Positions 3,358 to 63,330 of a stretch of 64,000 nucleotides of DNA are shown piece after piece (position 1 is the first letter of the stretch; the number at the start of each line of letters is the position of its first letter). The stretch is from a virus. Both the position numbers and the translations under genes were made by a program. The notes beneath the pieces were generated by a model. It was not told the DNA's origin. It saw only the letters and a program-made list of their open reading frames with translations, and made no database searches. The stretch is taken from IMG/VR virus record IMGVR_UViG_3300044617_000796, positions 1 through 64,000 of that record; one strand, 5' to 3'.

Positions 3358-4416
3358 TTAAACCTCTTCCAAGGTTATAGAGCAGTCCCAGAAATATACA
3401 TCATTAGACAAGTCTCTTCTAATCAATGATTCATTATAATCTTTCACTAATACATTATAACTTGTTTCTGTTGGTGGTGTAACCCCAGACTCATCTAAAT
3501 TAACTATTTTTAATATATGATGGCTTGGGTCGGAAGCTATGGTTTTAATATAATCACGAGCCTCTTTTTGATCCGCTGTGTACTCTAGTGAATTAGGTAG
3601 CCATGACCATGAAAGACTGAATGTTCTTCTACCCGATCTACTTGTAGACTTATAGTACCTTGTCTTTCTATTATTCCAATTTTTATTTTGAGTAAAAATT
3701 GGCTCAAGACCAGAATCAAACTTCCTGTTGTGATTTGTAATTGCTCTACCATCAAGAAGCATAAATGTTCTAATTACGGATGAATCAACAGTTCCATTAA
3801 CAGCAAACTTAATTGCCTCAGCAGTCATGTTCCCTATTTCAACAAGATTAATTCTAATTGTTGCAAGAGATATTTTGCCAGCAACAGTTAATTGCAATGA
3901 TGATGACAATGCAGAAATTGCTTGTGAAATCTTAGTCCCAACGCTAGTTAGTGATGCAGAAGCTGAAACCACTGCGGCTGAGTTTGCAAACTTCATAAAA
4001 GCAGCGGTAATGTCTGCAGATGACGACAATACTGCAGCGGACTCTGCAATTCTCGTAACTGTTTGAGCAACATCTACAGAGGCACTTTGAGAAGATTCCG
4101 AATACGAAAACTTCATCATTGTTACAGCAACAGTTGTGTTGGCAGAAACGGTGACTAGTGCATCTTGTCTTTCTGTAGCTACGGTAGCAGTTACTGATAA
4201 ACCAGAGAGCGCAACATCTGCAAAAATAATTTTATGCGCACTAACGCTAGAATCAGCCTGGGCTGAAAGTACAATATCGCCATGAATTATTCTATAAGAA
4301 TCAACTGTTAAACTTGCAGATGAGCTTAAAGCGACTATTACATCATTGTCGTCTGCTAAGTAGAAATCAATACCACTATTGAGGGGCTCGGAGAAGCTAA
4401 ACCAACTGGCAGACAT
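3358..4416 (-). CDS. Minor tail protein with Ser/Ala-rich repeats and a distal-tail C-terminal domain
   Basis: The 352-residue product begins with about 180 residues of low-complexity Ser/Ala/Val repeats (SSSADITA, SASASLTS). About 140 residues follow that parallel the whole of the next-upstream protein at 4417-4812: a RRxYYS-type segment, then FSLSWSWLPNS, a TAD motif, and the ending LIRRDLSNDVYFWDCSITLEEV-like close. The pair therefore looks like a duplication in which one copy gained a repeat stalk. It abuts its neighbours (stop at 4417, next start at 3357) and is probably translated with them. A role at the distal tail, between tape measure and baseplate, is inferred from position. Confidence 0.65.
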   Translation of the reverse strand: MSASWFSFSEPLNSGIDFYLADDNDVIVALSSSASLTVDSYRIIHGDIVLSAQADSSVSAHKIIFADVALSGLSVTATVATERQDALVTVSANTTVAVTMMKFSYSESSQSASVDVAQTVTRIAESAAVLSSSADITAAFMKFANSAAVVSASASLTSVGTKISQAISALSSSLQLTVAGKISLATIRINLVEIGNMTAEAIKFAVNGTVDSSVIRTFMLLDGRAITNHNRKFDSGLEPIFTQNKNWNNRKTRYYKSTSRSGRRTFSLSWSWLPNSLEYTADQKEARDYIKTIASDPSHHILKIVNLDESGVTPPTETSYNVLVKDYNESLIRRDLSNDVYFWDCSITLEEV

Positions 4417-4812
4417 TTAAACCTCCACCAAAGACAACTCAACATCATAATACGAACACTTTGTTGGCATATGTCTTCTTATCAGTGTTTCTGAATACGA
4501 ATCAATAAAGCATTCATATTCTGTATAACCCTCACCTGGGGCTAGTTCTATCCCGACTGTTACGCTTGCTCTTGTGTTGACTAAATTACTTAGATAGCTT
4601 TGTCCAACCCGACCATCTGCAGTTATATTCTGCACACTTGGGAGATACTTCCAGCTTATTGAAAACTTTTGCTTATTCTTAGAATAGTATCTTCTTCTGT
4701 GACCGCTGGCTAGGTCAATATCGTTAGCAGCAATCTCCTCATCAATCTTCAAGGTTCTTCCGTGTTCTGTAATCTCAATACCGTCAATTGTTAGCAACTT
4801 GTATAGATCCAT
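4417..4812 (-). CDS. Minor tail protein, short distal-tail type
   Basis: A 131-residue protein whose ATG overlaps the tape-measure stop by one base, so it is translationally coupled to it. It carries the same core as the C-terminal part of the 352-residue protein downstream (FSISWKYLPS, TADGRVG, SETLIRR). Its position immediately after the tape measure fits a distal tail or tail-tip adaptor. No catalytic motif is visible and the exact family is not assigned. Confidence 0.65.
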   Translation of the reverse strand: MDLYKLLTIDGIEITEHGRTLKIDEEIAANDIDLASGHRRRYYSKNKQKFSISWKYLPSVQNITADGRVGQSYLSNLVNTRASVTVGIELAPGEGYTEYECFIDSYSETLIRRHMPTKCSYYDVELSLVEV

Positions 4813-13800: not shown

Positions 13801-16800
13801 CGGGCTTTACCTCTAGATGAAGGCTGCAGGTCCATTTCTTCAAGAATTACTTTATTTCCTTCATCCAATAAAGTTTGCAATTTCTTCTTTGCTTCTAACA
13901 TTTCTTGTTTTTGTTCTGCGATTAACTCATCAAGACCTAAAACCGAACCTAGCAATTCATTTTTTGTAACAGGAAGAGGTGGATTTGTACTTGCAACTCT
14001 AGCAAGTGATGAAATTTTAGCTTCTCTTAATTTTTGAATTTTAAGCCTGGCTTCGTCAATTCTCTTATTAAGAACATAGTCAGGTTTTATTTTTGCTTCA
14101 GCAGCAGCTCTTTTAGCAGCAGCCGCATCTGCATCTAACGAATCAGAGCCAGACCCAAACGCTTTTCTTGCTGCTTCATCTGCGGCTCTTAGCTGTACTT
14201 GCGCATCATTGCCTGGAACAAGTACTTCGTTTTTAACAAGAGTAACCATCCTTTCGCCAGAAGCGTTAACGCTTTCTACAAAACTATGAGTCTTTGCACG
14301 AACATTTCTGAATGCTCTTCTTAAATCATCACCATAAGAAGATAGAGGTCCAGCCTCATTAGCAATAATATCTACCTCATCAACAATGTTTGGAAGAAGC
14401 TTATCTATATCTTTAAGTGAATTAACAACTGTTGTTGATGATTGTTTTACTACTCCATTAGTAATTGATTCTGCCGCAATAAAGTGGTCTTCTATCGCTC
14501 GCTTAACATCATTAACGAGCACTGGCTTTCCAGCAGTCAAATCAGTGATAGTCCTCCCTGTTGCTCCCATAGGAGTATCCAGCATGTTGTCTAATCTCAA
14601 TTCATTAATAGTAGCCAGCGTCTGATTGAGACCAACATTAACTTGCTCAGCAATACTGTCTGACACAGATGCAATAACTGGTGCGAGATCCGCTCGGACT
14701 GCCTTACCCATACCCCTCAAGCCACGGATTGAAGCCAAATTCTTTAGTCTCTTATCAAGACCTTCTTCTCCAGTAGCTAATGTAAAAATACCTTGTTTAG
14801 TTTTATCAAATATTTTTGTTTTAACCGCATCCAAAGTGCCTTTACTTACAGTAAAAACACCACCTTTAGAAAAAGCATATTCCAGTTGATCTGAAATAGG
14901 CTTGCCAGCCTGCACATACCATTCCCTGATCTGATCAAAAGAAAGTTTTACATTATCCCCAGCTCTTGATAAGAATCTCTGGATAGCAACTGGACCAAGT
15001 GGGTCTCTCCCAAGAGCAATTCTGTTTTGACTTATATTAGACAGCAACTGCGCTGGGTTGAACGGGGCTTGAGGTCTTGCAACCGCAGAAGCTGCTTGCA
15101 TTGCACCAGCGGCTGCATTCGCAGGGGAGAACAAGAGGGAGCCAGATCTCTTCTTAATACTATTAAGAGTTTTTTCTAAATCGTTAAATGATTTAGCAGT
15201 AGATGTTGGGAACAATGTTCCTTTTGGATAAGTCGTAACTGTTGGTGGTCTTAACCTAGCCTTTCTTGCCTCATTTGCGGCAACAGCCGCTACGGTTTCT
15301 TCTGGAGTTAGGTCATCAGCGATTGCACCGCCAGATCCTCTTGGCGCTCTTGGTGTTCTTGTACTTCCAGGACCACCAGATGTTCCTCCAAAAGGAATAT
15401 TGTTCTGAAAATAGTTTGGACCAGCGAAAAGGTTTGGTCCTTGAAATCTATGCATCGCATTTGCAAATTGAGCTACGATATCATCAGATAGATTTGCTGC
15501 ACCTTTAGTGACACCACTTTCAGCACCAGCTGCTACTTGAGCAGCACTTTGAGCCGCACCTTGAGCATTAATGGTTTTTAGATCGTTCATGAACTGATCT
15601 GTTTGAGGAACAAACGGTTGCATCCGTTTCATATTTACAGCCTTATCTGAGCCGTAAATGCCTCCAGCTTGAATAGCTTCTTTAGCAGGAAGCGAAATAC
15701 CGCTAAAATCATAAGCTTCTTTTAGTTCTCTCGCCCCCCTCTTTGATTTGATCAAGAAACCATCAAGGTACTGAACAACTCTTTGTTGACCACGCAACAA
15801 ATTTGGATTCATAATTAAGTCTTGAAGGCTTGCAAACTGGAGTGTGGTCCCAGAAACAATTCTTGATAACTTAACAAATATGCCGACTGCACCGCCGAAT
15901 GCATTCTGTATTGTTGTGAAAATCATTCTTACAGGACCAGACAATGCGACAATGCCTAGTAAGGCGCTTGCTAATTTTGCAACAAATGGATTATTTTGTA
16001 AAAAAGATGCAAGCTTCTCTAGGACTGGAAGAAGACCTTTGAGGAAAACATCAACAACTGGAACGACTGCTCTACCCAGAGCCATCAACGATTCTTTTGC
16101 TCTGCGATATCTTACTTCAGGTGTATCTTGAGACAACTTAAGTTCTGCCTCAAATTGTTTTCCAGCAAGTGATTGAACATCAAAAGCTTGCGCCATTAAT
16201 GCTTTACCAACTTCAGTAGACATACCAGATATAAAGTCAGAGTTTTTGCTGTTAGCGCTCTCAAGAAGTTTTTGTGCTGTTTTTTGACCTCTTTGGATAG
16301 CTTGCGCTTGGGCAGTTAAGACATCACTACTATCTTTTTCAATAGCCGCTCTATGTATATTGCTAAGATCCAAGAATTGATTGATTGCAATTTTTTTAGA
16401 CCCGATAGCGGCTAACTCAACATTGATTGAGTTCTGCAGGATATCTGCCGTTGTTCTTTCAACAGAGCCGTAAGTTTCTAAGCTTGTTTGGAAAGCTGCT
16501 AGCTGAGCGAATGCGGTCTCCATTCTTGGACCTTGACGAACACCGAAAAGTCTTGAGAAGAATTCCAGAGCGCCTTGTTTGCCCTTACCGCCTTCACTTA
16601 CAGACTTTGATAAAGTCCTGTACGCATCAGTCAGCATTTGAATGTTTTCCATTCCAACGCCAGCTGAATATTTAAACCCTGTTCCCATTTCAGCATTTAA
16701 CTGATTAATAATTTGCGTATTCTGTTTGGTCATTGCAACCATTCTTTGCAAAGAAACCTTAACCGAGTTAGCGGATGCACCCACCTGGAATCCAGCGCCA

Positions 16801-17939
16801 ATCATTGGAATAACAAGCGACATGGCTTCAGTCATTGACAAACCAAAGCTTGTTGCGGCAGCTGTAACTTCTGGGAATGCGTCAGCTATGTTTCTTAGGG
16901 ACATAACTGTTTTGTTTTCAATCGTGTTAAACACAGCCAACTGACCTCTTAGCTGGCTAATTATCTCATTCGCAACCTGATCACTGTTGATATCAACCGA
17001 TTTACCAGTCTCTCTTCTGATACGAAGAATTGTTTGGTACATCGTCTGAATAAACTCAGAAGACTGGGATATATCTAGGTTTCCTAGTTTCTCAGTCTCT
17101 GCTGTCATTCTTGTAAGGTCTCCAAGAACAATTCTGCTTGATATGCCCAATTCAGCAAAGTCTCCAGCGAGTGATTGTATAAGCACTCTACTGGTGCCCC
17201 AATCTCTGGTGATCTTATCTAAATCTTTTCCAAGCTCTGCGGTAAATGTTCTTGCCGCCTTCACTTGTCCTTCAAAATCACCACCTGCACCTATCTGATT
17301 AAAGTTGTCAAGAATAAGTTTTGTAGTTCTATTACTTTCGGTAGCAAGTTTAGAATAACTAAAAAATGCTTCTCTTAAGCCAGCGATTAACGGTAATGAA
17401 AAGTTCCTAAAAAAGTTATAAGCAGACTGCTGATTCTTCATCGCATTCTCGCTTGTTCTTCTGGAGTAATCAAGAAGAGCGACTTGCTTCATTGCTTTTT
17501 GCAAATCATTGCTTGACAATTTCATTGCATTCATGTGCTTTACGCTTTGCGACATTGCAGCGTTTGATCTGGTTAGTGCCATTGGGTCAGCAGAGCTTTG
17601 ATTCAACATTCTCTGGGCTGCAGAGTACGCTTCTGCAGATCTAGTTGCTTGGTCCAATACACGCTTCTGTATTTCTACAGCTCTCGTCATTCTCCCCAAT
17701 GGATTCAATGACTGAGTTATTTCTCTTGAATATTGAGAAACTCCACTGGCGCTCAACCCCATTGATTGGTTAAAAGCTTTTGTTACATTAGCATTCTGAA
17801 CAGCTCTTTGTGACAAAGTAGCAAGATGTTGCGAAAGATTAACTATCTGGGCAGATAGTTCAGCCGCCTGTTGTGCAGCATTACCTTCCATATTAACATT
17901 TAAATTGACATCGTTGTTAGAGTTAGAGGTATCAGACAT
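4812..17939 (-). CDS. Tape measure protein, exceptionally long
   Basis: This 4,375-residue protein occupies a fifth of the window. Tape measures span the tail lumen and set tail length; they lie after the chaperone pair and before the distal tail genes, as here. Visible features are helical N-terminal repeats, hydrophobic segments near residues 660-700, 2300-2340 and 3390-3430, and coiled-coil stretches. Two copies of a tape-measure motif (ALLHGGEYIIN, SILHGGEYVLN) lie near residues 3146 and 4270. A GPNLFxGPNxF motif occurs near residues 835 and 2050. Around residue 4010 a segment with HFALNHRV and GHGF resembles a globular module seen in other actinophage tape measures, function unknown to me. 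No strong Shine-Dalgarno sequence precedes the ATG; a promoter-like pair lies just upstream. Confidence 0.93.
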   Translation of the reverse strand: MSDTSNSNNDVNLNVNMEGNAAQQAAELSAQIVNLSQHLATLSQRAVQNANVTKAFNQSMGLSASGVSQYSREITQSLNPLGRMTRAVEIQKRVLDQATRSAEAYSAAQRMLNQSSADPMALTRSNAAMSQSVKHMNAMKLSSNDLQKAMKQVALLDYSRRTSENAMKNQQSAYNFFRNFSLPLIAGLREAFFSYSKLATESNRTTKLILDNFNQIGAGGDFEGQVKAARTFTAELGKDLDKITRDWGTSRVLIQSLAGDFAELGISSRIVLGDLTRMTAETEKLGNLDISQSSEFIQTMYQTILRIRRETGKSVDINSDQVANEIISQLRGQLAVFNTIENKTVMSLRNIADAFPEVTAAATSFGLSMTEAMSLVIPMIGAGFQVGASANSVKVSLQRMVAMTKQNTQIINQLNAEMGTGFKYSAGVGMENIQMLTDAYRTLSKSVSEGGKGKQGALEFFSRLFGVRQGPRMETAFAQLAAFQTSLETYGSVERTTADILQNSINVELAAIGSKKIAINQFLDLSNIHRAAIEKDSSDVLTAQAQAIQRGQKTAQKLLESANSKNSDFISGMSTEVGKALMAQAFDVQSLAGKQFEAELKLSQDTPEVRYRRAKESLMALGRAVVPVVDVFLKGLLPVLEKLASFLQNNPFVAKLASALLGIVALSGPVRMIFTTIQNAFGGAVGIFVKLSRIVSGTTLQFASLQDLIMNPNLLRGQQRVVQYLDGFLIKSKRGARELKEAYDFSGISLPAKEAIQAGGIYGSDKAVNMKRMQPFVPQTDQFMNDLKTINAQGAAQSAAQVAAGAESGVTKGAANLSDDIVAQFANAMHRFQGPNLFAGPNYFQNNIPFGGTSGGPGSTRTPRAPRGSGGAIADDLTPEETVAAVAANEARKARLRPPTVTTYPKGTLFPTSTAKSFNDLEKTLNSIKKRSGSLLFSPANAAAGAMQAASAVARPQAPFNPAQLLSNISQNRIALGRDPLGPVAIQRFLSRAGDNVKLSFDQIREWYVQAGKPISDQLEYAFSKGGVFTVSKGTLDAVKTKIFDKTKQGIFTLATGEEGLDKRLKNLASIRGLRGMGKAVRADLAPVIASVSDSIAEQVNVGLNQTLATINELRLDNMLDTPMGATGRTITDLTAGKPVLVNDVKRAIEDHFIAAESITNGVVKQSSTTVVNSLKDIDKLLPNIVDEVDIIANEAGPLSSYGDDLRRAFRNVRAKTHSFVESVNASGERMVTLVKNEVLVPGNDAQVQLRAADEAARKAFGSGSDSLDADAAAAKRAAAEAKIKPDYVLNKRIDEARLKIQKLREAKISSLARVASTNPPLPVTKNELLGSVLGLDELIAEQKQEMLEAKKKLQTLLDEGNKVILEEMDLQPSSRGKARVQKAGAERLKEIQDDFDFEFDLMQKHEKRLLARRNLVLDASPAGIQTQIDDIMLSLPDDIKAGIQDIDKAVNDGVSDLSMRSERRVARMKRAFADVKKEIKAAVPMNPMWNAVKQQIPMGSDGSPLDAFRYSGSRFFNDTRFQQPNARMFDARRGLSLPTSIKSFFGMDRVKGSFKVPKSLSAAAITQGEQIIFQFAEQLETQLGSVLANTAQADIKHITRVLQNLKPTSVSKDLATFMTSIVNLPQDQIEMAMGNTLTEIKRAITTQTGAGVGGKGMKSGSLQSWKALLERMRRGSQGLDTDASGNPIVKGIREFFFSGKIKKGAINTTSAKGISTALESAFVASMKGGFEGLGGADDAGVTEVARRLTVESNRPGLGRQRAAKKALKDAGKKTADAVKSIANDIEGFLTAPAAVMADIASKVDMAGAKSSSMIRAATDKVMKPIVKVYKPGELFPGRAPSITPAVTQAVNAATSSTVTPTPQTLKGLKNTEIELPATKRQAEKMMESAQRELARQLGIDAKASGASAKIKKLSVANFEKEIERLQGMIAGEQKLLDTFTSPAMRKGPERNLAKLNKQLKELAFARDKYVVAEFALATAAAEAVPTAPSTIAPTGATGATAPTAPPPRVPTPTTPVIPTPVTPSATGGAGKVIDIKKIGHIFKGPNLFQGPNIFDSSLSDLIPNFDELLSPVGEAAETMADAGDEVATSLSRVLAASEAHKLTGNLVGPGEVGEASRLSRTRTRLFGMKGIGVPSVTAGLDAAKIAGTAGLVEALADKKLRLKFDDAGALIGMSRIKKLGGEMAISFDRANSILAGRLLPNFTRFKKLFSSGIVKGWAFALTGGLTAAVKPAQSLLKAITATGEASMRGKARAAIDTLVESRDGKKTGVVRKAMAGLSGATGGINSLAAIGSKAADVMFKIVRAIVMIGTVAAVALPIIVLMFGIFQAWKSAQGRLTATTEALKQSLTNLKDAVVALFAPIRDMVNGFLGASSIGSTFMTQGEKNAAMFYGIATAIKKATGFMKKWAETTGKAFMTNQVAPFLARLINRFILLGGAIKSAFSGDKEAAGKKLKAFLYSLIYELLNFTKGITDVIAMVLKGLIPVLVTIAKVGVVVFREMFIALVSMAAEAGAGMARNLAADLMTAGFGKEYLKYIGDPFASLVTGNGFKIKGEQSSEQFSDGFSTGLSGKLSKLIDPIKGGLDSALTKGMSEVAKKYAELMGQGINIPLAQRLKNPKAYQDALKYNAKQSADAATAAGESLGGNVNKGIKDKMKEIKDTIKGYFYSNVDAKFENIIQQYIDALTKQKDEQLKAYDDQIAGIDALAEAEERLTAKKEYETKRREMLDQRETDRANYLVERRLAVYEGRAFDVRKLDREEALAQRNSAQEIKELDSGRLSQLQSEQRDLAKQAIANQKDLAEKQFQEVLDTFDRFIEDVKNKSFATQEEFAAALAGVGERANLSSAELAKVFAANIGELPRIIAGVRDPSINMFNTNMDELIKEASKKFGLDANVANPATLLGAVRMMAIGSEEGFKAAFNPAFAAAYVQPAIDAIAKITSSLSEKGNKNNIAEIWQKAGTDAFEKLRGELNRDIAFPKILESFKKLFEDLKPLVKQIVDLAGEASGALGGIGDNIVPGAAFTQEDRKNLEQYLLKFAPSDAGRRGDFSLNSPSLQKVVGIIMRDYDKGSEYMMSNIGSYGLNGLERVLLQGYLNNQTVSPGVPTLMRPLPGSVIRSYNGGHIRQFVRGGFLDAPSSQGIPALLHGGEYIINHKAVEKFGKGNLEKINALRHGGDLKGFASGGYMTTPGFANGGYMTTPGFAKGGSVRKYGVEDQKDILAKKALQTLQGPYATSIPVVASPTINLRSLPLVKNNLAGEGGISTVRSASFGIGKGEVLLPTVVQGKILSNTNAFNAYASGGYKNHLGIYANTAAASKAAEVIHLSEANRIGQVAKAQAQRNVDLKNAGIAKNFVGPIAPVIKPKEKSWWQKALPIVKEIARPRNSFAIAGGIIGGILGLPALGIGSVGGSAIGAGIGGAIGEFTEQIFDDIKGLQPFNIAKNALMQGTLDYAGGKVMTKVVAPIMKAKFPGVGTYLEGKIARPILDLFKKPGIKPFNPSILKPENVFDIQMQGPRPAIPPAPVKNPAVSVEDVFKDGFAPRASAAFAGSDGAIDKQVLDLFDELDNIASGQTNKLTTQLQRDVLKARLQAQGLIPRSMESLDEVGYYNSIIDNLLGVRSNVAPTDEILAEWAENMGKIDPAQLANDIFQQTGDIPMPKSFDPRIIPASREVIDFNNLQKDIAWATSRLLKDSDGVLPPDVLENIAKARNIKPGMEWWLQEQSDLLLPKANQPISFINKFGPGGKDIYKETSDIFMSLRERMALAPKELTTGGSGGALEIIKKITPIKTYKAGTGVLGEMPKYNYDTGGLDLKQLGLYVHKIGKENVVFGGMKSPLKGLAKRNPSLNIKSVGLNPYEISNLKPGTVEGDAIANEWARAIIGFTDVMGNSKDDTFISALLYNWKRNKDLFAMLKFKEYESLGSIAVNEQKVKMSGNTGEIIDTIVKGKKDYFKLKDLFVTHETPYPVDIDELGNLTLKPMSAFDTTSMVSFKGPYPGGPYNLGDKAEYFRDTLHFALNHRVTGHGFRENVQEGNFIISQLLPMLKNNPGALDNLYTVDTFFTPPPGKGLNFPAGTFKVVPIKKGSGINPTDELEKYMIEVLKITEQADVGSTFGTISPEQIIQKYKISGGDHGSEDYADNAISFLFAKLLGVKTGRHFDQFNSSTMFGSMKQGANINPSEYLNSYYYPMAGENAWSRVMSRNPFAQNFDMPYDNPQLMEKIQKVYDTFKMNEMSFPGGLPYNRRAYNGGYMPKFKKGGYLKFKEGGEVPSILHGGEYVLNSAAVKKYGLAHLEAMNQMKFNVPSAGFSVPQASYSGSAAGGMTTSTQNVNIYVDNFIGEPEWFNSMMKDYNTKILPKNQKAAGLENRVISTYNGLNRGQ

Positions 17940-57705: not shown

Positions 57706-57747
57706 TACACCCAATCATTATTACTACCCCGCAAATTAGTATCTGTG

Positions 57748-57753
57748 TATACT
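57748..57753 (+). promoter_or_regulatory. -10 box of a small RNA
   Basis: TATACT with a transcript start expected near 57760, at the beginning of a structured element. No clear -35 is seen. Confidence 0.4.
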
Positions 57754-57759
57754 GATAAA

Positions 57760-57849
57760 GGCAGCGAAAGCTAACCTTAGGACCGTTATAGGTGCAGATG
57801 CCTCTGGGCTCAACCCCCAGGGGCATGTGCATGTGTAGCGGTCTTTTTT
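57760..57849 (+). ncRNA. Structured small RNA at the head of the cassette array
   Basis: About 90 bases. First helix: AAGG-AGC closed by a GAAA tetraloop and GCT-CCTT (about 57758-57777). Second, long helix: GACCGTTATA (57781-57790) pairs with TGTAGCGGTC (57833-57842, with wobbles), containing GGTGCA/TGCATG and the strong apex GCCTCTGGG/CCCAGGGGC. TTTTTT follows. No reading frame with a ribosome site lies inside. The GNRA loop plus a terminator makes an independent RNA likely. Confidence 0.65.
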
Positions 57850-57975
57850 ATTCTCCCCCAAACTTTTATACTCCTATACCCGCCCTGAACCTTCCTATCC
57901 CAAATTTGAGTATACATTTTATGAATGTTACTTTTACTTTTAGACGCACTGGAAAATCCTGTGTTCACTAGGGTC

Positions 57976-58025
57976 AATCGCTGGAGTGCGATTCTGCTTA
58001 AGCAAAGAATTGTACACCAGCGATT
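57976..58025 (+). ncRNA. Cassette hairpin H1
   Basis: AATCGCTGG pairs with CCAGCGATT, then one A-A mismatch, then GTGCGATTC pairs with GAATTGTAC with two wobbles, capped by TGC-TTAA-GCA. It lies between an AT-rich box (TTGAGTATACATTTT at about 57907) and promoter B1. Confidence 0.6.
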
Positions 58026-58047
58026 GGGAAAGCGGATACAAAGGAAA

Positions 58048-58109
58048 TTGAATACACATTTTCTCTCAAATGCTATTGTAATTTGTGTCAAGGCAATCCC
58101 GCCGAGACA
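58048..58109 (+). promoter_or_regulatory. Cassette 1 promoter box B1 and leader hairpin
   Basis: TTGAATACACATTTT is followed by TGCTATTGT, a weak form of the extended -10. The leader hairpin TGTC..GGC / GCC..GACA (58086-58109) precedes the ribosome site AGAGG and the ATG at 58121. Confidence 0.6.
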
Positions 58110-58120
58110 GAGAGGACAGT

Positions 58121-58354
58121 ATGATTACTGAACACTGGACACGACAGAATGAGTTGCGTGAGCGTGAGCGCATGGCACTACGCTTGCTCAACCATATCCT
58201 GTCAATGACAATACCCGTTGAGGCTAATGACGATTGGTCTTGCGTCAAGTTCAACCTCAAATTAGAGGGCGGTTCCATTACCGTAATGACAGGCGCACAA
58301 TATCACCCGTCATGCAATATGTACGAGGTCATGGAATACGAGGTACAGCGATGA
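58121..58354 (+). CDS. Cassette 1 protein, unknown
   Basis: 77 residues from the ATG at 58121: a basic helix (RQNELRERERMALRLLNHIL) followed by a beta half (WSCVKFNLKLEGGSITVMTG). Two Cys. No family recognised. The stop overlaps the next ATG (ATGA). Confidence 0.55.
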   Translation: MITEHWTRQNELRERERMALRLLNHILSMTIPVEANDDWSCVKFNLKLEGGSITVMTGAQYHPSCNMYEVMEYEVQR

Positions 58355-58443
58355 AGTACCTACCACGCATTGGCTTCGGCATTGTGATTGGTTGCTTGGT
58401 TCTGATGATTGTTCAGACCATCGCCCACGCCTTTACAATGTGA
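58351..58443 (+). CDS. Cassette 1 tiny membrane peptide
   Basis: A 30-residue peptide (MKYLPRIGFGIVIGCLVLMI then VQTIAHAFTM), one membrane helix with a basic start. Translationally coupled to the preceding gene and directly followed by a terminator. Confidence 0.55.
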   Translation: MKYLPRIGFGIVIGCLVLMIVQTIAHAFTM

Positions 58444-58447
58444 GCCC

Positions 58448-58492
58448 GAACCCCGAATGCCTCCCCCCTGAGGCATTCGGGGTTCTTTTTTT
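58448..58492 (+). terminator. Cassette 1 terminator
   Basis: A perfect 16-base stem, GAACCCCGAATGCCTC against GAGGCATTCGGGGTTC, followed by a run of T. Confidence 0.9.
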
Positions 58493-58564
58493 GTCCCTGC
58501 ACCCGCCCTATCGCATGTCTGTTCCAATGAACTTTAATACACTCACAACACACATGCGATCGGG

Positions 58565-58603
58565 TGGTGGGCAAGGGCGCTTCAGCATTGCAATTGCACA
58601 CCA
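58565..58603 (+). ncRNA. Cassette hairpin H2
   Basis: TGGTGGGCAA pairs with TTGCACACCA except for one purine mismatch at the sixth position, and encloses GCTTCAGC. A truncated A box (TTTAATACAC) lies about 30 bases upstream. Confidence 0.6.
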
Positions 58604-58631
58604 ACTGTTGAGGATCAGAGCATGAACGAGA

Positions 58632-58693
58632 TTGAATACACATTTTTCCTCACATGGTATGTTTATTGTTATCGGAACACACCTAACCCCGAT
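58632..58693 (+). promoter_or_regulatory. Cassette 2 promoter box B2 and leader hairpin
   Basis: TTGAATACACATTTTT, spacer, TGGTATGTTTAT; then ATCGG / CCGAT leader hairpin (58671-58693) and AAAGGA before the ATG at 58709. Confidence 0.65.
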
Positions 58694-58708
58694 GAAAGGA
58701 CAAAGACC

Positions 58709-59017
58709 ATGAGTGAAAGAATATGTTCATATCATAGTTGGAACTACTTGTATGAAGTGCACCCAAGCGGTAAGTACTTCATTGCATACCAGTTCAGTTA
58801 CGACAATAAAGAGAGACAAGTTATTGCCGTAGTTGACCGCTATGTAACAGATGACAAGTGGGCTGCTATGCGTTGGTGCAGGGCACAGTATGACCTTGAG
58901 GTTGAACCTTGGGACAGAAGTGCTGAAGCCAACGAGATTAGGGAGAGTGCAAGGGTTGCCTTGCATGAACTCCACGAGTTGGAGAAAGAACAGGACAGGT
59001 ATCGTATCTACGGGTGA
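58709..59017 (+). CDS. Cassette 2 protein, unknown
   Basis: 102 residues (the frame is open further upstream but AAAGGA and the leader hairpin fix the start): a beta half (SGKYFIAYQFSYDNKERQVI) and a charged helical end (RVALHELHELEKEQDRYRIY). No family recognised. Followed by a GC-rich stem without a T run. Confidence 0.55.
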   Translation: MSERICSYHSWNYLYEVHPSGKYFIAYQFSYDNKERQVIAVVDRYVTDDKWAAMRWCRAQYDLEVEPWDRSAEANEIRESARVALHELHELEKEQDRYRIYG

Positions 59018-59022
59018 TACCA

Positions 59023-59049
59023 TCTCCCCTCGCCTTTGGGCGGGGGGAG
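59023..59049 (+). terminator. Cassette 2 terminator-like stem, no T run
   Basis: CTCCCCTCGCC and GGCGGGGGGAG form a stable stem but AACCCCG follows instead of T, so termination may be weak and cassette 3 partly co-transcribed. Confidence 0.5.
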
Positions 59050-59114
59050 AACCCCGACCTAATTGCGAACGATCATACATGTTTTTTAATACACATTCTC
59101 ACAAGAAAAAATCA

Positions 59115-59155
59115 TTGGTGTGCGGAGCTGCTTCAGCGAAAGATTTGTGCACCAA
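59115..59155 (+). ncRNA. Cassette hairpin H3
   Basis: TTGGTGTGC pairs with GTGCACCAA (two wobbles), enclosing GCTG-CTT-CAGC. The A box TTTAATACACATTCTCA begins at 59085. Confidence 0.6.
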
Positions 59156-59182
59156 CGAATAGGGCACATGCTCTCAACAGCG

Positions 59183-59248
59183 TTTAATACACATTTTTTA
59201 CAAGATGGTATGTTTATTTATGTCAAGGACACTCCCTAACACCTTGAC
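59183..59248 (+). promoter_or_regulatory. Cassette 3 promoter box B3 and leader hairpin
   Basis: TTTAATACACATTTTTT, spacer, TGGTATGTTTAT; then GTCAAGG / CCTTGAC (59222-59248) and GGGAGATAGCA before the ATG at 59261. Confidence 0.65.
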
Positions 59249-59260
59249 AGGGAGATAGCA

Positions 59261-59452
59261 ATGAAAAAGCGGACAGAAGTTAGTCCAAACCACCCAGTCG
59301 CAAGACTGACACTGGAACAACAATTCATGGTTGTTGCAGGCGCACTCAATCGTGCTACCCAGCAGGGCAACACGAAAGGCATTCAGGGCTTGGCAATGAT
59401 GCTCAAGGGTTACGAGGAAGCAATAGCCAAGAAGAACCAAGAAGCCAAGTAA
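59261..59452 (+). CDS. Cassette 3 protein, unknown
   Basis: A 63-residue helical protein (RLTLEQQFMVVAGALNRATQ ... AMMLKGYEEAIAKKNQEAK). No family recognised. Confidence 0.55.
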   Translation: MKKRTEVSPNHPVARLTLEQQFMVVAGALNRATQQGNTKGIQGLAMMLKGYEEAIAKKNQEAK

Positions 59453-59470
59453 TACCCTAATCCCCCCAGT

Positions 59471-59505
59471 CCCCTCAAGCCGAAAGGCTTGGGGGGATTT
59501 TTTTT
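59471..59505 (+). terminator. Cassette 3 terminator
   Basis: CCCCTCAAGCC, loop GAAA, GGCTTGGGGGG, then eight T. Confidence 0.9.
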
Positions 59506-59576
59506 GCCTAAACACCAGCGTTCTCACATGACCATACCCTTTATCTTTAATACACATTCTCATCACACAAGAACGG

Positions 59577-59615
59577 TGGTGTGCAAAGCTGCTTCAGCAA
59601 AAGATTTGTACGCCA
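59577..59615 (+). ncRNA. Cassette hairpin H4
   Basis: TGGTGTGCAAA pairs with TTTGTACGCCA over 11 positions (two wobbles), enclosing GCTG-CTT-CAGC. The upstream arm AACACCAGCGTTCT (59511-59524) can pair with GAACGGTGGTGT instead. The A box begins near 59546. Confidence 0.65.
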
Positions 59616-59643
59616 ACGAATGAGGTACACACTATCAACTCTC

Positions 59644-59704
59644 TTTAATACACATTTTCCATCAGATGGTATGGTTATCTTGTTCCTAGCAATCCCGCTA
59701 GGAC
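59644..59704 (+). promoter_or_regulatory. Cassette 4 promoter box B4 and leader hairpin
   Basis: TTTAATACACATTTTCC, spacer, TGGTATGGTTAT; then GTTCCTAGC / GCTAGGAC (59682-59704) and GGAGATAGCA before the ATG at 59720. Confidence 0.65.
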
Positions 59705-59719
59705 AGATTGGAGATAGCA

Positions 59720-59941
59720 ATGAAAATTATGGTTACTATCCAAACCCCGACTTGCCCCGAATGCGGGCATTGGGGCGAGATCCAAATGACCCGTGATGAA
59801 TGGGAGTTTGGCAAGACGGCTAGTTGGCAGGGCGAACTCATTCAGAATTGTTTCCCTACCCTTACCCCAGCCCAGCGTGAGCAACTCATGAATGGCTACC
59901 ATTCAGAGTGTTGGGATAAGATGTTTGCGAGTGCAGAATGA
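59720..59941 (+). CDS. Cassette 4 protein with zinc-binding pattern
   Basis: 73 residues: TPTCPECGHWGEI at the start and GYHSECWDKMF near the end supply Cys and His ligands for one zinc. The middle LIQNCFPTLTPAQREQLMNG resembles a small protein I recall from many actinophages (AFP-x-L-xx-xEREQL ... CWD). Function unknown. Overlaps the next gene by four bases. Confidence 0.65.
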   Translation: MKIMVTIQTPTCPECGHWGEIQMTRDEWEFGKTASWQGELIQNCFPTLTPAQREQLMNGYHSECWDKMFASAE

Positions 59942-60177
59942 GCCCGCAATTACTGGAGACTATCCTCCACGCCGTAGCAGACCTACGGATACCCAAGACT
60001 GACGGGGTAATCATTGAGGCTCTCAAGATACCCCGTGAGATATTCCAGCAAGACGGTGTAGAGTGCCGTAAATACAAGCGGAGTGTTGAGCATCAGATAC
60101 GCACTCACCCCGCTATCAAGCCAGTACTTGTCTGGTGGACAGTACACGGTGACTGCTACTTGACAAGAGCAGACTGA
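59938..60177 (+). CDS. Cassette 4 second protein, unknown
   Basis: 79 residues coupled to the previous gene by ATGA: helical start (LLETILHAVADLRIP), then a possible helix-turn-helix (TDGVIIEALKIPREIFQQDG) and a beta end (PVLVWWTVHGDCYLT). No family recognised. Confidence 0.5.
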   Translation: MSPQLLETILHAVADLRIPKTDGVIIEALKIPREIFQQDGVECRKYKRSVEHQIRTHPAIKPVLVWWTVHGDCYLTRAD

Positions 60178-60182
60178 AACTT

Positions 60183-60216
60183 CCCCCTCGTGCCTTCGGG
60201 TGCGAGGGGGTTTTTT
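60183..60216 (+). terminator. Cassette 4 terminator
   Basis: CCCCCTCG and CGAGGGGG stem with a GCCTTCGGGT-like apex, then TTTTTT. Confidence 0.9.
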
Positions 60217-60289
60217 CATGTCCAACACCAGTCTTTCCGTATGCCATTGCCCATTGTCTTGAATACACATTCTCATACGAAAAAAAGAA

Positions 60290-60328
60290 TGGTGTACGGA
60301 GCTGCTTCAGCAAAAGCTTTGTGCACCA
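60290..60328 (+). ncRNA. Cassette hairpin H5
   Basis: TGGTGTACGGAGC pairs with GCTTTGTGCACCA over 13 positions, several as G-T wobbles, enclosing TGC-TTCA-GCA. The upstream arm AACACCAGTCTTTCC (60224-60238) is a rival partner of GAAAAAAAGAATGGTGT. Confidence 0.65.
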
Positions 60329-60356
60329 GCCGAAGGGGTACACACTCTCAACTACA

Positions 60357-60423
60357 TTGAATACACATTTTTCATGATATGTTATGTTTATTCATGTCAG
60401 CGATTATCCTAACCCCGCTGGCA
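60357..60423 (+). promoter_or_regulatory. Cassette 5 promoter box B5 and leader hairpin
   Basis: TTGAATACACATTTTT, spacer, TGTTATGTTTAT; then TGTCAGC / GCTGGCA (60395-60423) and AAGGAGAAAGCAA before the ATG at 60436. Confidence 0.65.
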
Positions 60424-60435
60424 AGGAGAAAGCAA

Positions 60436-60693
60436 ATGAAACGAGTACCTAAAGGCTCTGTCAAGGTAATGAAGCGTGGGCGCAGTAAGTTCCATGACCC
60501 GTACCTTGCCAAGTGCGTCAAGGCAGTAAGCAACACTTATGATATTGTTGCAACACAAAGGGCAGTACCGAACACGATAGCCAACAAAAACCGTGTTCGT
60601 TCCCGCATTATGAGCCTTGCAGGAAACAAAAAACTTGGCGTGAATTGGTACGCTGAGGGCAAACTTGTAGTGCCAGTAATCACCAAGAAATAA
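60436..60693 (+). CDS. Cassette 5 protein, basic, unknown
   Basis: An 85-residue strongly basic protein (MKRVPKGSVKVMKRGRSKFH ... NKNRVRSRIMSLAGNKKLG) that could bind nucleic acid. No family recognised. Confidence 0.55.
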   Translation: MKRVPKGSVKVMKRGRSKFHDPYLAKCVKAVSNTYDIVATQRAVPNTIANKNRVRSRIMSLAGNKKLGVNWYAEGKLVVPVITKK

Positions 60694-60710
60694 GGTCGCT
60701 TCTCCAGCGA

Positions 60711-60743
60711 ACCCCCAAGCCTACGGGCTTGGGGGTTTTTTTT
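60711..60743 (+). terminator. Cassette 5 terminator
   Basis: ACCCCCAAGCC, loop TACG, GGCTTGGGGGT, then a T run. Confidence 0.9.
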
Positions 60744-60814
60744 GTGCCTGAACGCCAGCGCCATAGCAAAGTCATAACCAGTTGGTTGAGCACATGTTCT
60801 CTCTCTTGATATGT

Positions 60815-60859
60815 CGTTGGCGTGCGGATTGGGTTTACCAAACAATTTGAACGACAACG
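60815..60859 (+). ncRNA. Cassette hairpin H6
   Basis: CGTTG/CAACG, CGT/ACG and GATTG/CAATT helices, capped by GG-TTTA-CC. The cap is GC-TTTA-GC in H7 and H8, a compensated change. The A box is degenerate here. Confidence 0.6.
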
Positions 60860-60884
60860 AAAAGGGTACAGGGTCTCAACGGCA

Positions 60885-60950
60885 TTGAATACACATTTTT
60901 GATGACATGGTATGTTTATAGATGTCAAGGACATTCCATACCCCCTTGAC
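60885..60950 (+). promoter_or_regulatory. Cassette 6 promoter box B6 and leader hairpin
   Basis: TTGAATACACATTTTT, spacer, TGGTATGTTTAT; then GTCAAGG / CCTTGAC (60924-60950) and AAGGAGATAGCA before the ATG at 60963. Confidence 0.65.
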
Positions 60951-60962
60951 AAGGAGATAGCA

Positions 60963-61229
60963 ATGACACACCTACCCGAACACCCAAGAGCACTCACGAT
61001 TGCTCATGAGGATGTTGTCAAAGTTGCCTTGCAACTGAAAGACAACCTCATCACCAGAGGCGAGATGAATGCTCAGATGCTCAGCATTGTGGTTGGCATG
61101 AAAGTTGCCCTGCGCCAAGAGTTCATTGGCGAAGTGCAGGACAAGTTGAGCGACATTGAGCAACTGTTCACAGATGTTCAAGGCTCAATTGAGGAAATGG
61201 ATTACCTCACACTCTTCCAACCAGAGTGA
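60963..61229 (+). CDS. Cassette 6 protein, unknown
   Basis: An 88-residue acidic helical protein (MTHLPEHPRALTIAHEDVVK ... DKLSDIEQLFTDVQGSIEEM). No family recognised. Confidence 0.55.
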   Translation: MTHLPEHPRALTIAHEDVVKVALQLKDNLITRGEMNAQMLSIVVGMKVALRQEFIGEVQDKLSDIEQLFTDVQGSIEEMDYLTLFQPE

Positions 61230-61244
61230 TTGTTCCTTCCCCCG

Positions 61245-61279
61245 CTCCCCTCGCCTTCGGGCGGGGGGAGTTTTTTTTT
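61245..61279 (+). terminator. Cassette 6 terminator
   Basis: CTCCCCTCGCC, loop TTCG, GGCGGGGGGAG, then nine T. The stem is almost that of cassette 2, which lacks the T run. Confidence 0.9.
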
Positions 61280-61349
61280 GCCTGAACTCCAACTTTTCCC
61301 ATATGCCATGTCTCTTTGCTTGAGTACACATTCTCACACTGGAAAAAAA

Positions 61350-61392
61350 GCTGGTGGGCGGATCTGCTTTAGCAAAAGATTTGCACTCCAGC
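61350..61392 (+). ncRNA. Cassette hairpin H7
   Basis: GCTGG/CCAGC, GC/GC and GGATCT/AGATTT helices with two mismatches, enclosing GC-TTTA-GC. The A box TTGAGTACACATTCTCA begins at 61320; the upstream arm CTCCAACTTTTC is a rival partner of GAAAAAAAGCTGG. Confidence 0.6.
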
Positions 61393-61418
61393 CAATGAGG
61401 AAGCGAAACGAAACCAGG

Positions 61419-61497
61419 TTGAATACATATTTTTAGCGTAATGCTATATTTATCTCATGCCAAAGCGATTAGGCTGAGGCAACACACTGCGGTGTGT
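61419..61497 (+). promoter_or_regulatory. Cassette 7 promoter box B7 and leader hairpin
   Basis: TTGAATACATATTTTT, spacer, TGCTATATTTAT; then an ACACAC / GTGTGT leader hairpin (61482-61497) and AAGGAGATAAGCA before the ATG at 61517. Confidence 0.65.
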
Positions 61498-61516
61498 ATA
61501 ACCAAGGAGATAAGCA

Positions 61517-61828
61517 ATGCCAAAGGTAAACCTAAGCGACCTCAAAGGTCAGTTATCATCTCGTGGGCGAGCCCCGTATGACAACCCTGAACTTGAGGCT
61601 GAAATCAAGAGCCTTGACCCAGCCATTGATGGTGATGCAACCATCTATGAGGGCAGTCAAGGAGACCCATCAAGCGAGGACTACACGAACCACAAAGCAA
61701 TGTGGCGTGGGCGTGCCGAGACAATTGCCGACAAGAACGGCATTGCCATCAGCGTGCAGTGGCTCACCACTGGTCAGATGGTTATCTCGCTTGCCAAGCC
61801 TGCAAAGGGCAAGAGCAAGCGCAAGTAA
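61517..61828 (+). CDS. Cassette 7 protein, paralogue of cassette 8
   Basis: 103 residues (MPKVNLSDLKGQLSSRGRAP ... EDYTNHKAMWRGRAETIADK ... SLAKPAKGKSKRK). About half of the positions match the cassette 8 product, so the two arose by duplication. N-terminal helix, acidic middle, basic end; the R/K-rich C-terminus may bind nucleic acid or DNA-bound partners. No family recognised. Confidence 0.65.
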   Translation: MPKVNLSDLKGQLSSRGRAPYDNPELEAEIKSLDPAIDGDATIYEGSQGDPSSEDYTNHKAMWRGRAETIADKNGIAISVQWLTTGQMVISLAKPAKGKSKRK

Positions 61829-61851
61829 CCGCATCTCCTGCGGTTAGTATA

Positions 61852-61885
61852 GAACCCCCGTACTTCGGTACGGGGGTTCTTTTTT
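61852..61885 (+). terminator. Cassette 7 terminator
   Basis: GAACCCCCGTAC, loop TTCG, GTACGGGGGTTC, then six T. A smaller ACCGCA/TGCGGT hairpin lies just before. Confidence 0.92.
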
Positions 61886-61925
61886 GCTGGCGTTCATCCC
61901 GTGCTGAAGCACAATGAACGCCAGC
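61886..61925 (+). ncRNA. Post-terminator hairpin of cassette 7-8 spacer
   Basis: GCTGGCGTTCAT pairs perfectly with ATGAACGCCAGC, with an inner GTGCT/AGCAC hairpin. The same structure recurs at 62511-62550 with compensated changes (GCG/CGC to GTG/CAC). Confidence 0.6.
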
Positions 61926-61981
61926 TTTGCGACACATGCCATTCTCTCATTTTTAGTACAGATTCTCAATCCCATTCCCTG

Positions 61982-62024
61982 GCGGGCGTGCGATTGCGCT
62001 TTAGCGATGCAATTGCACACCCGC
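61982..62024 (+). ncRNA. Cassette hairpin H8
   Basis: GCGGG/CCCGC, one C-A mismatch, GTGC/GCAC and GATTGC/GCAATT helices, capped by GC-TTTA-GC. It is the best formed of the set. Confidence 0.65.
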
Positions 62025-62050
62025 TGTTGGGGTACCAATACGAAACCGAA

Positions 62051-62129
62051 TTGAATACATATTTTCACCATAATGGTATGTTTATTTATGTCAAAGGCAA
62101 TACCGCCGAGACACACTCATACCGAGTGT
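62051..62129 (+). promoter_or_regulatory. Cassette 8 promoter box B8 and two leader hairpins
   Basis: TTGAATACATATTTT, spacer, TGGTATGTTTAT; then TGTC..GGC / GCC..GACA (62089-62113, as in cassette 1) and ACACTC / GAGTGT (62113-62129), then GGGAG before the ATG at 62149. Confidence 0.65.
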
Positions 62130-62148
62130 TGAACATGGGAGAATACCT

Positions 62149-62454
62149 ATGGCAAAGATAAACCTCAATGACTTGCAAGGCATGCTGTCCAAGCGTGGGC
62201 GTGAGGCGTTCCACGATGAGACACTACAAGCCGAGATTGTTAGCCTTGACCCAAAGGTTGAGGGTGACGCATTCATTTGGGATGACGCACAGGGTAATCC
62301 AAACGATGAGGATTACACAAACCACAAGGCTAAGTATCGTGGTCGTGTTGAAACCATTGCAGAGCGCAACAATGTCGCTGTGTCCGTTCAATGGACTACA
62401 GACGGGCGTTGCGTAGTCTCACTCGCCAAGCCTGCCAAAGGCAAGCGCAAGTAA
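62149..62454 (+). CDS. Cassette 8 protein, paralogue of cassette 7
   Basis: 101 residues (MAKINLNDLQGMLSKRGREA ... EDYTNHKAKYRGRVETIAER ... SLAKPAKGKRK). Sequence plan and spacing of conserved residues match cassette 7. The hairpins and terminators also match, so the whole cassette was copied, not just the gene. Confidence 0.65.
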   Translation: MAKINLNDLQGMLSKRGREAFHDETLQAEIVSLDPKVEGDAFIWDDAQGNPNDEDYTNHKAKYRGRVETIAERNNVAVSVQWTTDGRCVVSLAKPAKGKRK

Positions 62455-62476
62455 CCCTTACCCCGTAAGGCGTGTA

Positions 62477-62510
62477 GAAGCCCCGTACTTCGGTACGGGG
62501 CTTCTTTTTT
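62477..62510 (+). terminator. Cassette 8 terminator
   Basis: GAAGCCCCGTAC, loop TTCG, GTACGGGGCTTC, then six T. Differs from the cassette 7 terminator by paired changes in both arms. Confidence 0.92.
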
Positions 62511-62550
62511 GCTGGTGTTCATCCCGTGCTAAAGCACAATGAACACCAGT
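62511..62550 (+). ncRNA. Post-terminator hairpin after cassette 8
   Basis: GCTGGTGTTCAT pairs with ATGAACACCAGT, with inner GTGCT/AGCAC. Compensated copy of the element at 61886-61925. Confidence 0.6.
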
Positions 62551-62606
62551 TATCAGAAGGCTTATCGTTACCATTTTTAATATACATATTCCTAATCATA
62601 AAGATG

Positions 62607-62649
62607 GCGGGTGTCCCAAAAAGAAATGCATTTGTTTTTGTACACCCGC
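62607..62649 (+). ncRNA. Cassette hairpin H9 of a decayed cassette
   Basis: GCGGGTGT pairs with ACACCCGC and an inner CAAAAA/TTTTTG helix surrounds AAATGCATTT. The helices are kept although the inner sequence differs completely from H1-H8. A degenerate A box lies at about 62576, and a degenerate B box with no real gene follows. Confidence 0.55.
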
Positions 62650-63330
62650 AAAATATAATTAATTTATCGCTTAACTTTATTACATATTTCTAATCATAAC
62701 TATAAGATTACATATGGCTTTCAAAATGTATTCCAAAATCTCATAGATAAATACTTATCTAAGGGAGGAAGGTAAAAGTTTACGCACATTTTATTTTTGT
62801 TAATCAAATGGGCTGGGAAAGACTTAGCCTGTCTCTCTACCTATCGCCTCAGATTACATCAGTGTAATCAAACACTTATACTATTCCTAAATCTATGCAT
62901 CAACCCGTCATTATTCTGGGTCATCAATCGGTTATAGTATTACGCCCCTATATAGTCTAAAAGAGGGGGAATATGTTTGTATTATTCTTATAGATACCCA
63001 GTAATAGGGTATTTACATAGGGGAATCTAAATAGATCTCAATATCTGAGCTTTTTTGCCCAATTGTTGACCATTTTGGTAGTATTTCTATTAAAAATATT
63101 ATTAATTAGTGAAAAAAAGACAAAAAAAACACCCAAAAATAAGCTTATTTTAAGCCTATAAATGGGTGTTTTCCTTATGTACTATGTGATATATCAGCTA
63201 TATATTATTGATACATCTATGATATGCCTATGATATGAACTCCTGCTATATAGAATATATCTTATACATATTGGAGCGTGTCTCTCTCATACGCTAATGG
63301 TTTTTGACACTTATTTTCTATCAATTCAAA
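62650..63330. other. AT-rich non-coding region between converging gene blocks
   Basis: No reading frame with a ribosome site was found in these 680 bases. The region holds several inverted repeats: AGATAA/TTATCT near 62744-62759, GATTACA/TGTAATC near 62851-62868 and ACCC/GGGT pairs. There is also a run of related ATGATATG-type words near 63180-63260. The left part keeps the remains of a ninth cassette. It could be an origin, a genome end or a recombination site; nothing seen decides. Confidence 0.4.
63118..63170 (-). terminator. Terminator of the right-hand minus-strand operon
   Basis: AACACCCA (63128-63135) pairs with TGGGTGTT (63163-63170), with an inner AAAATAAGCTTATTTT palindrome. On the minus strand a run of eight T follows. 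It lies about 160 bases beyond the stop at 63331. Confidence 0.8.

Follow-up and report, generated by a model that had tools for sequence, protein, structure and literature searches.

Several viruses are known in which small genes carry transcription signals of their own. In T4-like phages, promoter-early stem-loops (PeSLs), cassettes that join a promoter to a stem-loop terminator, mediate gene shuffling (Arbiol 2010; Comeau 2014; as cited in PMC4503421), and in archaeal viruses early anti-defence small genes each have a near-identical promoter with a virus-specific consensus (PMC11065993). Here we examine a locus of related design in the virus record IMGVR_UViG_3300044617_000796 of IMG/VR. 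The window that was analysed, the left 64 kb of this 108,840-base record, holds at 57.98-62.51 kb eight consecutive + strand units in which repeated hairpins and promoter motifs stand before small genes. With a probability of about 0.68, we read the region as eight units in tandem, each transcribed on its own, in a double-stranded DNA tailed phage; hairpin and promoter would form a genome-specific platform, with leader and gene as exchangeable cargo.

As far as the account in PMC4503421 goes, the array shares with PeSLs the repeated promoter and stem-loop cassettes between small genes and the recombination that swaps genes among related phages: spacers between small genes here combine a terminator with a promoter motif, and genes have been exchanged among relatives in the repeat-bearing region. 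On the same account, it differs in lacking a host sigma-70-like promoter sequence and in its carrier, which is a double-stranded DNA tailed phage but not a T4-like myovirus; the best matches of its terminase, at 41-42% identity, are Streptomyces phages of the Stanwilliamsviridae, and it is the terminase alone that suggests the label 'actinophage-like' for the virus group. The archaeal gene sets resemble the array in placing many single small genes under near-identical, virus-specific promoters; they differ in their TATA-box and B-recognition-element (TATA/BRE) promoters and in that some gene functions were tested, and the hairpin, leader and terminator plan is not described in the passages of that paper on these genes (PMC11065993). 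The array works like both systems, so far as these accounts extend, and the original prediction, which knew of no comparable arrangement, was too strong. In addition to its strict tandem order, what is new is a covarying upstream hairpin, a leader hairpin, promoter dialects, and start and end elements.

Three other systems share single features with the locus. The start-associated and extended start-associated sequences (SAS/ESAS) of cluster K mycobacteriophages are likewise repeats 5' of gene starts, and some contain an inverted repeat with a consensus that varies by subcluster (PMC3203893). SAS, however, is a short translation-start motif, GGGATAGGAGCCC, found genome-wide (PMC3203893), whereas here promoter and hairpin lie 5' of the predicted mRNA start and a terminator belongs to the unit; the SAS 13-mer was not seen in the array. 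Cluster A mycobacteriophages have stoperators, 13-bp asymmetric sites oriented along transcription at promoters and in spacers (PMC9283540). An asymmetric 13-bp site oriented with transcription recurs here, but in one array and mostly with a -10, and no repressor was recognised in a partial scan. Finally, halovirus HF2 carries intergenic repeats of 29 or 58 bp that are conserved in related viruses and were shown to be promoters; repeated, conserved intergenic promoter sequences are the point of likeness, and the archaeal carrier, the 29/58-bp repeats and the long transcripts are the points of difference (PMC8707807).

Anatomy of the array

The original prediction of eight units on one plan, each with a conserved upstream hairpin, a promoter at the second (B) of two boxes, a leader hairpin and one or two small genes, is borne out. 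The order in each unit is a 46-nt hairpin, ~28 nt, a 13-bp box, 20 nt, TAnnnT, a leader that in most units forms a hairpin, a ribosome site, a single small gene or a pair (units 1 and 4) and a GC-rich terminator, with spacers of 243-320 nt between units; gene starts are preceded by AGGAGATAGCAATG-type sites.

The promoter box, TTKARTACMYATT, is an asymmetric 13-bp sequence that spans the -35 region and is always oriented with transcription, and the -10 is TAnnnT. Allowing up to two mismatches in the box and a -10 at exactly 20 nt, a search of both strands of the 108.8-kb record returned the full motif eight times, each time in the array and on the + strand, and nowhere else on either strand. 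The box by itself gave 16 forward matches, against none with a reversed-pattern control. The eight putative promoters, given from the first base of the box to the last of the -10, are:

58048..58079, +, unit 1, -10 TATTGT (box 58048-58060, -10 58074-58079)
58632..58663, +, unit 2, -10 TATGTT
59183..59214, +, unit 3, -10 TATGTT
59644..59675, +, unit 4, -10 TATGGT
60357..60388, +, unit 5, -10 TATGTT
60885..60916, +, unit 6, -10 TATGTT
61419..61450, +, unit 7, -10 TATATT
62051..62082, +, unit 8, -10 TATGTT

Some 98 bp before the B box lies the A box, a copy of the same 13-bp sequence that lacks a -10. It had been predicted for every unit, which holds for units 3-8 (0-2 mismatches); in unit 2 it is degenerate and in unit 1 it is absent. 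A second promoter at this position was considered and rejected, as no recognisable -10 stands behind the A box.

58533..58545, +, degenerate A box of unit 2, TTTAATACACTCA
59085..59097, +, A box of unit 3
59546..59558, +, A box of unit 4
60259..60271, +, A box of unit 5
60786..60798, +, A box of unit 6 (2 mismatches)
61320..61332, +, A box of unit 7
61952..61964, +, A box of unit 8 (1 mismatch)

Boxes without a -10 also mark the two ends of the array:

57906..57918, +, start element, a box (TTGAGTATACATT) that lacks a -10 and lies 142 bp upstream of the first promoter
62576..62700, +, end element, made up of a box, a hairpin (62606-62651) and a second box at 62676, with no -10 and no gene

A similar box stands at the array start in relatives. 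The end element, which matches the hairpin model described below weakly (16.1 bits), is 92% identical in the related array L100 and has similar counterparts at the array ends of L096, L106/L059 and L104. Since both elements are kept in relatives, what had been taken for a decayed ninth cassette (62.57-62.70 kb) is better viewed as a border. A single start-element-like box, TTGAGTATACATTTTC, occurs in a long non-coding stretch at G000 71388-71403 (L080 7388-7403), where it adjoins a tRNA-Arg(TCT) gene.

All eight upstream hairpins fit one covariance model (R1) at 37-47 bits, scores that are circular for the 11 genomes that built the model, whereas the confinement to arrays, the absence elsewhere and a match in the relative L115 are not:

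57979..58023, +, unit 1 upstream hairpin (R1, 44.9 bits)
58562..58607, +, unit 2 upstream hairpin (47.1 bits)
59113..59158, +, unit 3 upstream hairpin (44.0 bits)
59574..59619, +, unit 4 upstream hairpin (47.3 bits)
60287..60332, +, unit 5 upstream hairpin (39.6 bits)
60815..60860, +, unit 6 upstream hairpin (37.1 bits)
61349..61394, +, unit 7 upstream hairpin (46.4 bits)
61981..62026, +, unit 8 upstream hairpin (43.3 bits)
61884..61926, -, inverted hairpin-family copy after the unit 7 terminator (24.6 bits on -, 20.0 on +)
62509..62552, either strand (equal scores), second extra hairpin copy, after the unit 8 terminator

The last two copies were absent from the original prediction. Relatives' last spacers also carry inverted copies, ~98 bp before the normal hairpin, and a full spacer therefore consists of hairpin (-) and A box, then hairpin (+), B box and -10; most other units keep just a piece resembling the 3' arm of the first hairpin (CCTGAACGCCAGC). 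R1 matches are confined to the arrays in the window's 108.8-kb record and in 12 related virus records. No hairpin-family match was found in Streptomyces phages Yaboi and Mildred21, and an Rfam scan of the window gave tRNAs only, with nothing above gathering score in the array.

Across an alignment of 87 hairpins, taken from the window's genome and ten relatives (11 genomes in all), the pairing shows strong covariation: 12 of 15 pairs have changed on both sides, and the covariation score is 0.310, versus 0.152 ± 0.010 for shuffled alignments and at most 0.114 for slid structures. The non-canonical pairs are also skewed. On the + strand, columns 7-20 x 38-50 contain 108 G-T and 17 A-C cells, compared with 134:52 after random reassignment of the letters within each column, and 10 of the 11 genomes lean the same way, although units within one genome are not independent in this statistic; the same count in leader hairpins is 49 G-T to 45 A-C. 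Because a double-stranded operator would not tell G-T from A-C, this is moderate evidence that the + strand of the upstream hairpin folds, as RNA or as single-stranded DNA. A DNA dyad operator was rejected for the hairpin on the strength of the wobble bias and of recurrent G-A mismatches.

Leader hairpins are present in 71 of the 87 units of the 11 genomes and most often begin 5-6 nt past the -10, at the expected +1; that of unit 3 (TGTCAAGG...CCTTGACA) is typical of most other units. At the other end of the units, seven terminators have 12-16 bp stems followed by T-runs, and terminator-like sites number 19 versus 4.7 ± 2.2 in shuffles. The predicted terminator is thus present in seven units, the hairpin after gene 2 having no T-run. 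Promoter, hairpin at the expected +1 and terminator make the predicted separate transcription of each unit well supported by sequence.

59221..59249, +, unit 3 leader hairpin, beginning at the predicted +1
58448..58495, +, unit 1 intrinsic terminator (16-pair stem and T-run)
59024..59049, +, GC-rich hairpin 3' of gene 2, without a T-run, doubtful terminator
59468..59505, +, unit 3 terminator
60183..60216, +, unit 4 terminator
60709..60745, +, unit 5 terminator
61244..61280, +, unit 6 terminator
61851..61885, +, unit 7 terminator
62476..62511, +, unit 8 terminator

Promoter dialects and exchange among relatives

Relatives were found by pattern and protein searches of IMG/VR; they are metagenomic contigs, most of them probably incomplete. 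The array of L028 is near-identical to that of the window and the array of L100 is close (the contig of L100 also gave L067 and L096), and more distant arrays occur in L101, L102, L104, L106, L107, L108, L110, L111, L122 and L115. Nuclease-like, FmdB-like and ferredoxin-like flanking genes are common to most of them, and the array therefore holds its genomic position. A search of genome contigs for array relatives found none, the right part of the window gave a single short unrelated match to isolate phages by megablast, and distant blastn of the array matched only a 40-base stretch at a terminator, in Klebsiella phages.

Box and -10 come in a version particular to each genome and near-uniform over its units. 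For example, L111 uses TTTAGTACCCATT in 12 of 12 promoters and TATAGT in 11 of 12; L104 mostly has TATAGT, L101 and L102 have TAAGGT in most units, and the window and L100 have TATGTT or TATGGT in most. The distance from box to -10 is also fixed within each genome, at 20 in some and 21 in others. Divergence is widest in L115, which keeps the hairpin plan with the box TTTGAGTGCGTTT and the -10 TATTGT. The L115 array (3054-8409) has, in nearly every unit, an extra palindrome, GTTAGG...CCTAAC, between hairpin and promoter.

To which part of the unit this uniformity extends is evident from pairwise identities, compared with paralogous family 1 left out. Promoters are 0.79 identical between different genes of the same genome, 0.72 between the same gene in different genomes and 0.64 where neither is shared; for hairpins the corresponding values are 0.68, 0.64 and 0.53. 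Leaders invert this ranking, at 0.43, 0.64 and 0.35. None of 500 shuffles of genome labels reached the within-genome value. Hairpin and promoter therefore track the genome, and leader and gene move jointly, leaving a visible border between what a genome owns and what travels.

Individual units tell the same story. Between the window and L122, gene 1a is identical over 234 nt and its leader 97% identical, with only 65% identity in the promoter region and 49% in the hairpin region; gene 2 (98%) and gene 4a (99%) behave in the same way in L122. Overall, genes that are 98-100% identical stand behind promoter and hairpin regions that are 49-76% identical. The reverse, expected by the original prediction as the same spacers beside different genes, is also found: between L122 and L106, hairpin, promoter and leader are 92-98% identical and the genes that follow just 55%. 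In L100 an unrelated gene takes the place of the second gene of unit 4, in the interval bounded by the gene 4a stop and the terminator. The few exchange junctions observed lie between -10 and leader or at gene ends, not at the hairpin.

The idea of a platform for keeping and exchanging genes is thus upheld as regards gene content, which differs between relatives, and not as regards free gene shuffling, which we rejected: genes mostly stand in the same order across genomes, apart from insertions, losses, a single partner swap and a single translocation (family 5).

A working model and its alternatives

On our reading, RNA polymerase would start at the promoter of each unit (13-bp box, 20 nt, TAnnnT), presumably early in infection. 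The mRNA would open at, or within a few bases of, the leader stem-loop, with the ribosome-binding site immediately after it, and one or two small genes would follow before an intrinsic terminator ended the transcript. Stems at the 5' end guard mRNA against decay, and the leader stem would serve as the 5' stabiliser of the unit mRNA. Leader-gene cargo would be gained, lost or replaced unit by unit, probably through recombination in the repeated spacers, which would supply homology, and at the -10/+1 junction. Because each unit has its own start, 5' stabiliser and stop, such an exchange would leave its neighbours undisturbed. As for the upstream hairpin, its most likely role, weakly supported at present, would be as + strand RNA in read-through transcripts, perhaps as a processing site or boundary.

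Several observations sit uneasily with this model. Sigma-70 sites of the TTGACA/TATAAT type with 16-18 nt spacing are absent from all B positions, and a sigma factor search found no sigma-70 region 2 domain; the promoter may be read by a host sigma factor with unusual spacing or by a phage factor. No obvious promoter serves the upstream hairpin, and its wobble excess implies a single-stranded form of the + strand for which one transcript per unit does not, on its own, account. Since unit 2 lacks a T-run, it may be transcribed jointly with unit 3. In addition, exchange does not amount to frequent shuffling, as order is mostly conserved.

How the box itself should be understood admits a tentative but credible alternative, which is compatible with the array model. 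It may be the site of a phage repressor or activator, overlapping the promoter at B, with the A and array-end boxes acting like stoperators that stop read-through and the dialects reflecting co-evolution with the regulator. Indeed, the box is asymmetric, 13 bp long and always directed along transcription, A boxes and end elements have no -10, and dialects are particular to each genome; L5-type repressor sites are direction-dependent asymmetric 13-mers found at promoters and in intergenic positions (PMC9283540). Yet the partial protein scan found no convincing repressor, the full motif is gathered in one array and not spread genome-wide, most units of L107 and L111 have no A box, and the hairpin is left unexplained. 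Another proposal is one main RNA through all units, on which the hairpins would direct cleavage or protection as signals for processing or antitermination. The + strand pairing bias of the upstream hairpin, the missing T-run of unit 2 and the arrangement in, for example, L111, where the terminator abuts the hairpin and the hairpin could be transcribed only by read-through, all agree with that proposal. We nevertheless consider it unlikely, with seven strong T-run terminators and a full promoter motif in every unit.

It is also tempting to see the hairpin as a single-stranded DNA recombination site through which a site-specific recombinase moves units in and out, as in integrons. Each unit has one covarying, array-confined hairpin in a fixed place, start and end elements frame the array, inverted copies lie near its end, and wobble pairs are biased to the + strand. 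However, no integrase or tyrosine recombinase (IntI) appeared among ~38 proteins scanned outside the array (part of the genes), known exchange boundaries fall at the -10/leader or the gene stop and off the hairpin, and gene order is mostly conserved; we regard this proposal as quite improbable. Equally doubtful is a broader version, in which hairpin and box would be a dedicated exchange element of actinophage-like viruses, active in the form of single-stranded DNA or RNA. The element would mark unit borders, slot leader-gene cargo behind the genome's own dialect and be kept uniform by gene conversion, in an integron-like platform with no recognised integrase. Plain duplication and divergence, under which spacers are alike as recent tandem copies and no exchange took place, is largely refuted and very improbable: genes 5, 7 and 8 are paralogous as it would predict, but the remaining genes are unrelated, divergent spacers precede identical genes, and hairpin and promoter are similar within genomes while leader and gene track gene families across genomes. 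For the array model that we favour, the uniformity within genomes raises the question of what keeps at least eight promoters alike, a co-evolving factor or gene conversion.

Array genes and their surroundings

Ten genes are carried by the array:

58121..58354, +, unit 1 gene a, 77 aa (234/234 nt same in L122; no Pfam/NCBIfam match; weak match to a PHROG of unknown function)
58351..58443, +, unit 1 gene b, hydrophobic product of 30 aa (nt identity to L122, 91%)
58709..59017, +, unit 2 gene, 102 aa (nt identity to L122, 98%)
59261..59452, +, unit 3 gene, 63 aa (homologues in four relatives)
59720..59941, +, unit 4 gene a, 73 aa with a CPxC motif (weak matches to DUF7167 and phrog_20898; nt identity to L122, 99%)
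59938..60177, +, unit 4 gene b, 79 aa (unrelated gene instead in L100/L067)
60436..60693, +, unit 5 gene, 85 aa (distantly paralogous to genes 7 and 8)
60963..61229, +, unit 6 gene, 88 aa (different array position in L106, L110 and L122)
61517..61828, +, unit 7 gene, 103 aa, KINL family
62149..62454, +, unit 8 gene, 101 aa, also of the KINL family (identity to gene 7, 60%)

The ratio of nonsynonymous to synonymous polymorphism (pN/pS), pooled over the array genes against relatives, is 0.32, which suggests that the open reading frames are real and under purifying selection. Domain searches with the ten proteins returned only sub-threshold DUF7167 and weak PHROG matches, mostly of unknown function; the gene-7-type protein had no match among isolate phages, and AlphaFold models of gene 8 (predicted local distance difference test, pLDDT, 80) and gene 4a (pLDDT 90) had no confident PDB match. 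The paralogues 5, 7 and 8 share an RGR motif, and their family occupies array ends, with four members in L106 and in L102.

Phages hold large sets of small genes that probably act on hosts and host defences. The layout described here, present in a dozen virus records, would make such genes individually switched as well as exchangeable, and the promoter dialect is a possible route to candidate host-takeover or anti-defence genes. The covarying hairpin is newly described here.

Elsewhere, most genes of the record read leftward, unlike those of the array, and they include genes for a DnaE-type polymerase, a DnaB-type helicase, and RecA-like and RuvC-like proteins. One reading frame of 4375 codons (4812-17939, -) perhaps encodes an unusually long tape measure protein. 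From 63331 of the window to about 84 kb of G000, a long leftward series of small genes (-) contains, among those scanned, almost none in a family of known function.

Directly 5' of the array, 57745-57852 (+) has a strong predicted fold (-55.2 kcal/mol, z -7.8) with a T-run at its end and a TATACT hexamer upstream; related structures precede relatives' arrays, and the element may be a strong terminator or a small RNA. On the far side, an AT-rich, non-coding stretch (62650-63330), partly conserved in L106 and L101, separates the array from converging left-reading genes, and a bidirectional terminator-like repeat lies within it at 63126-63172.

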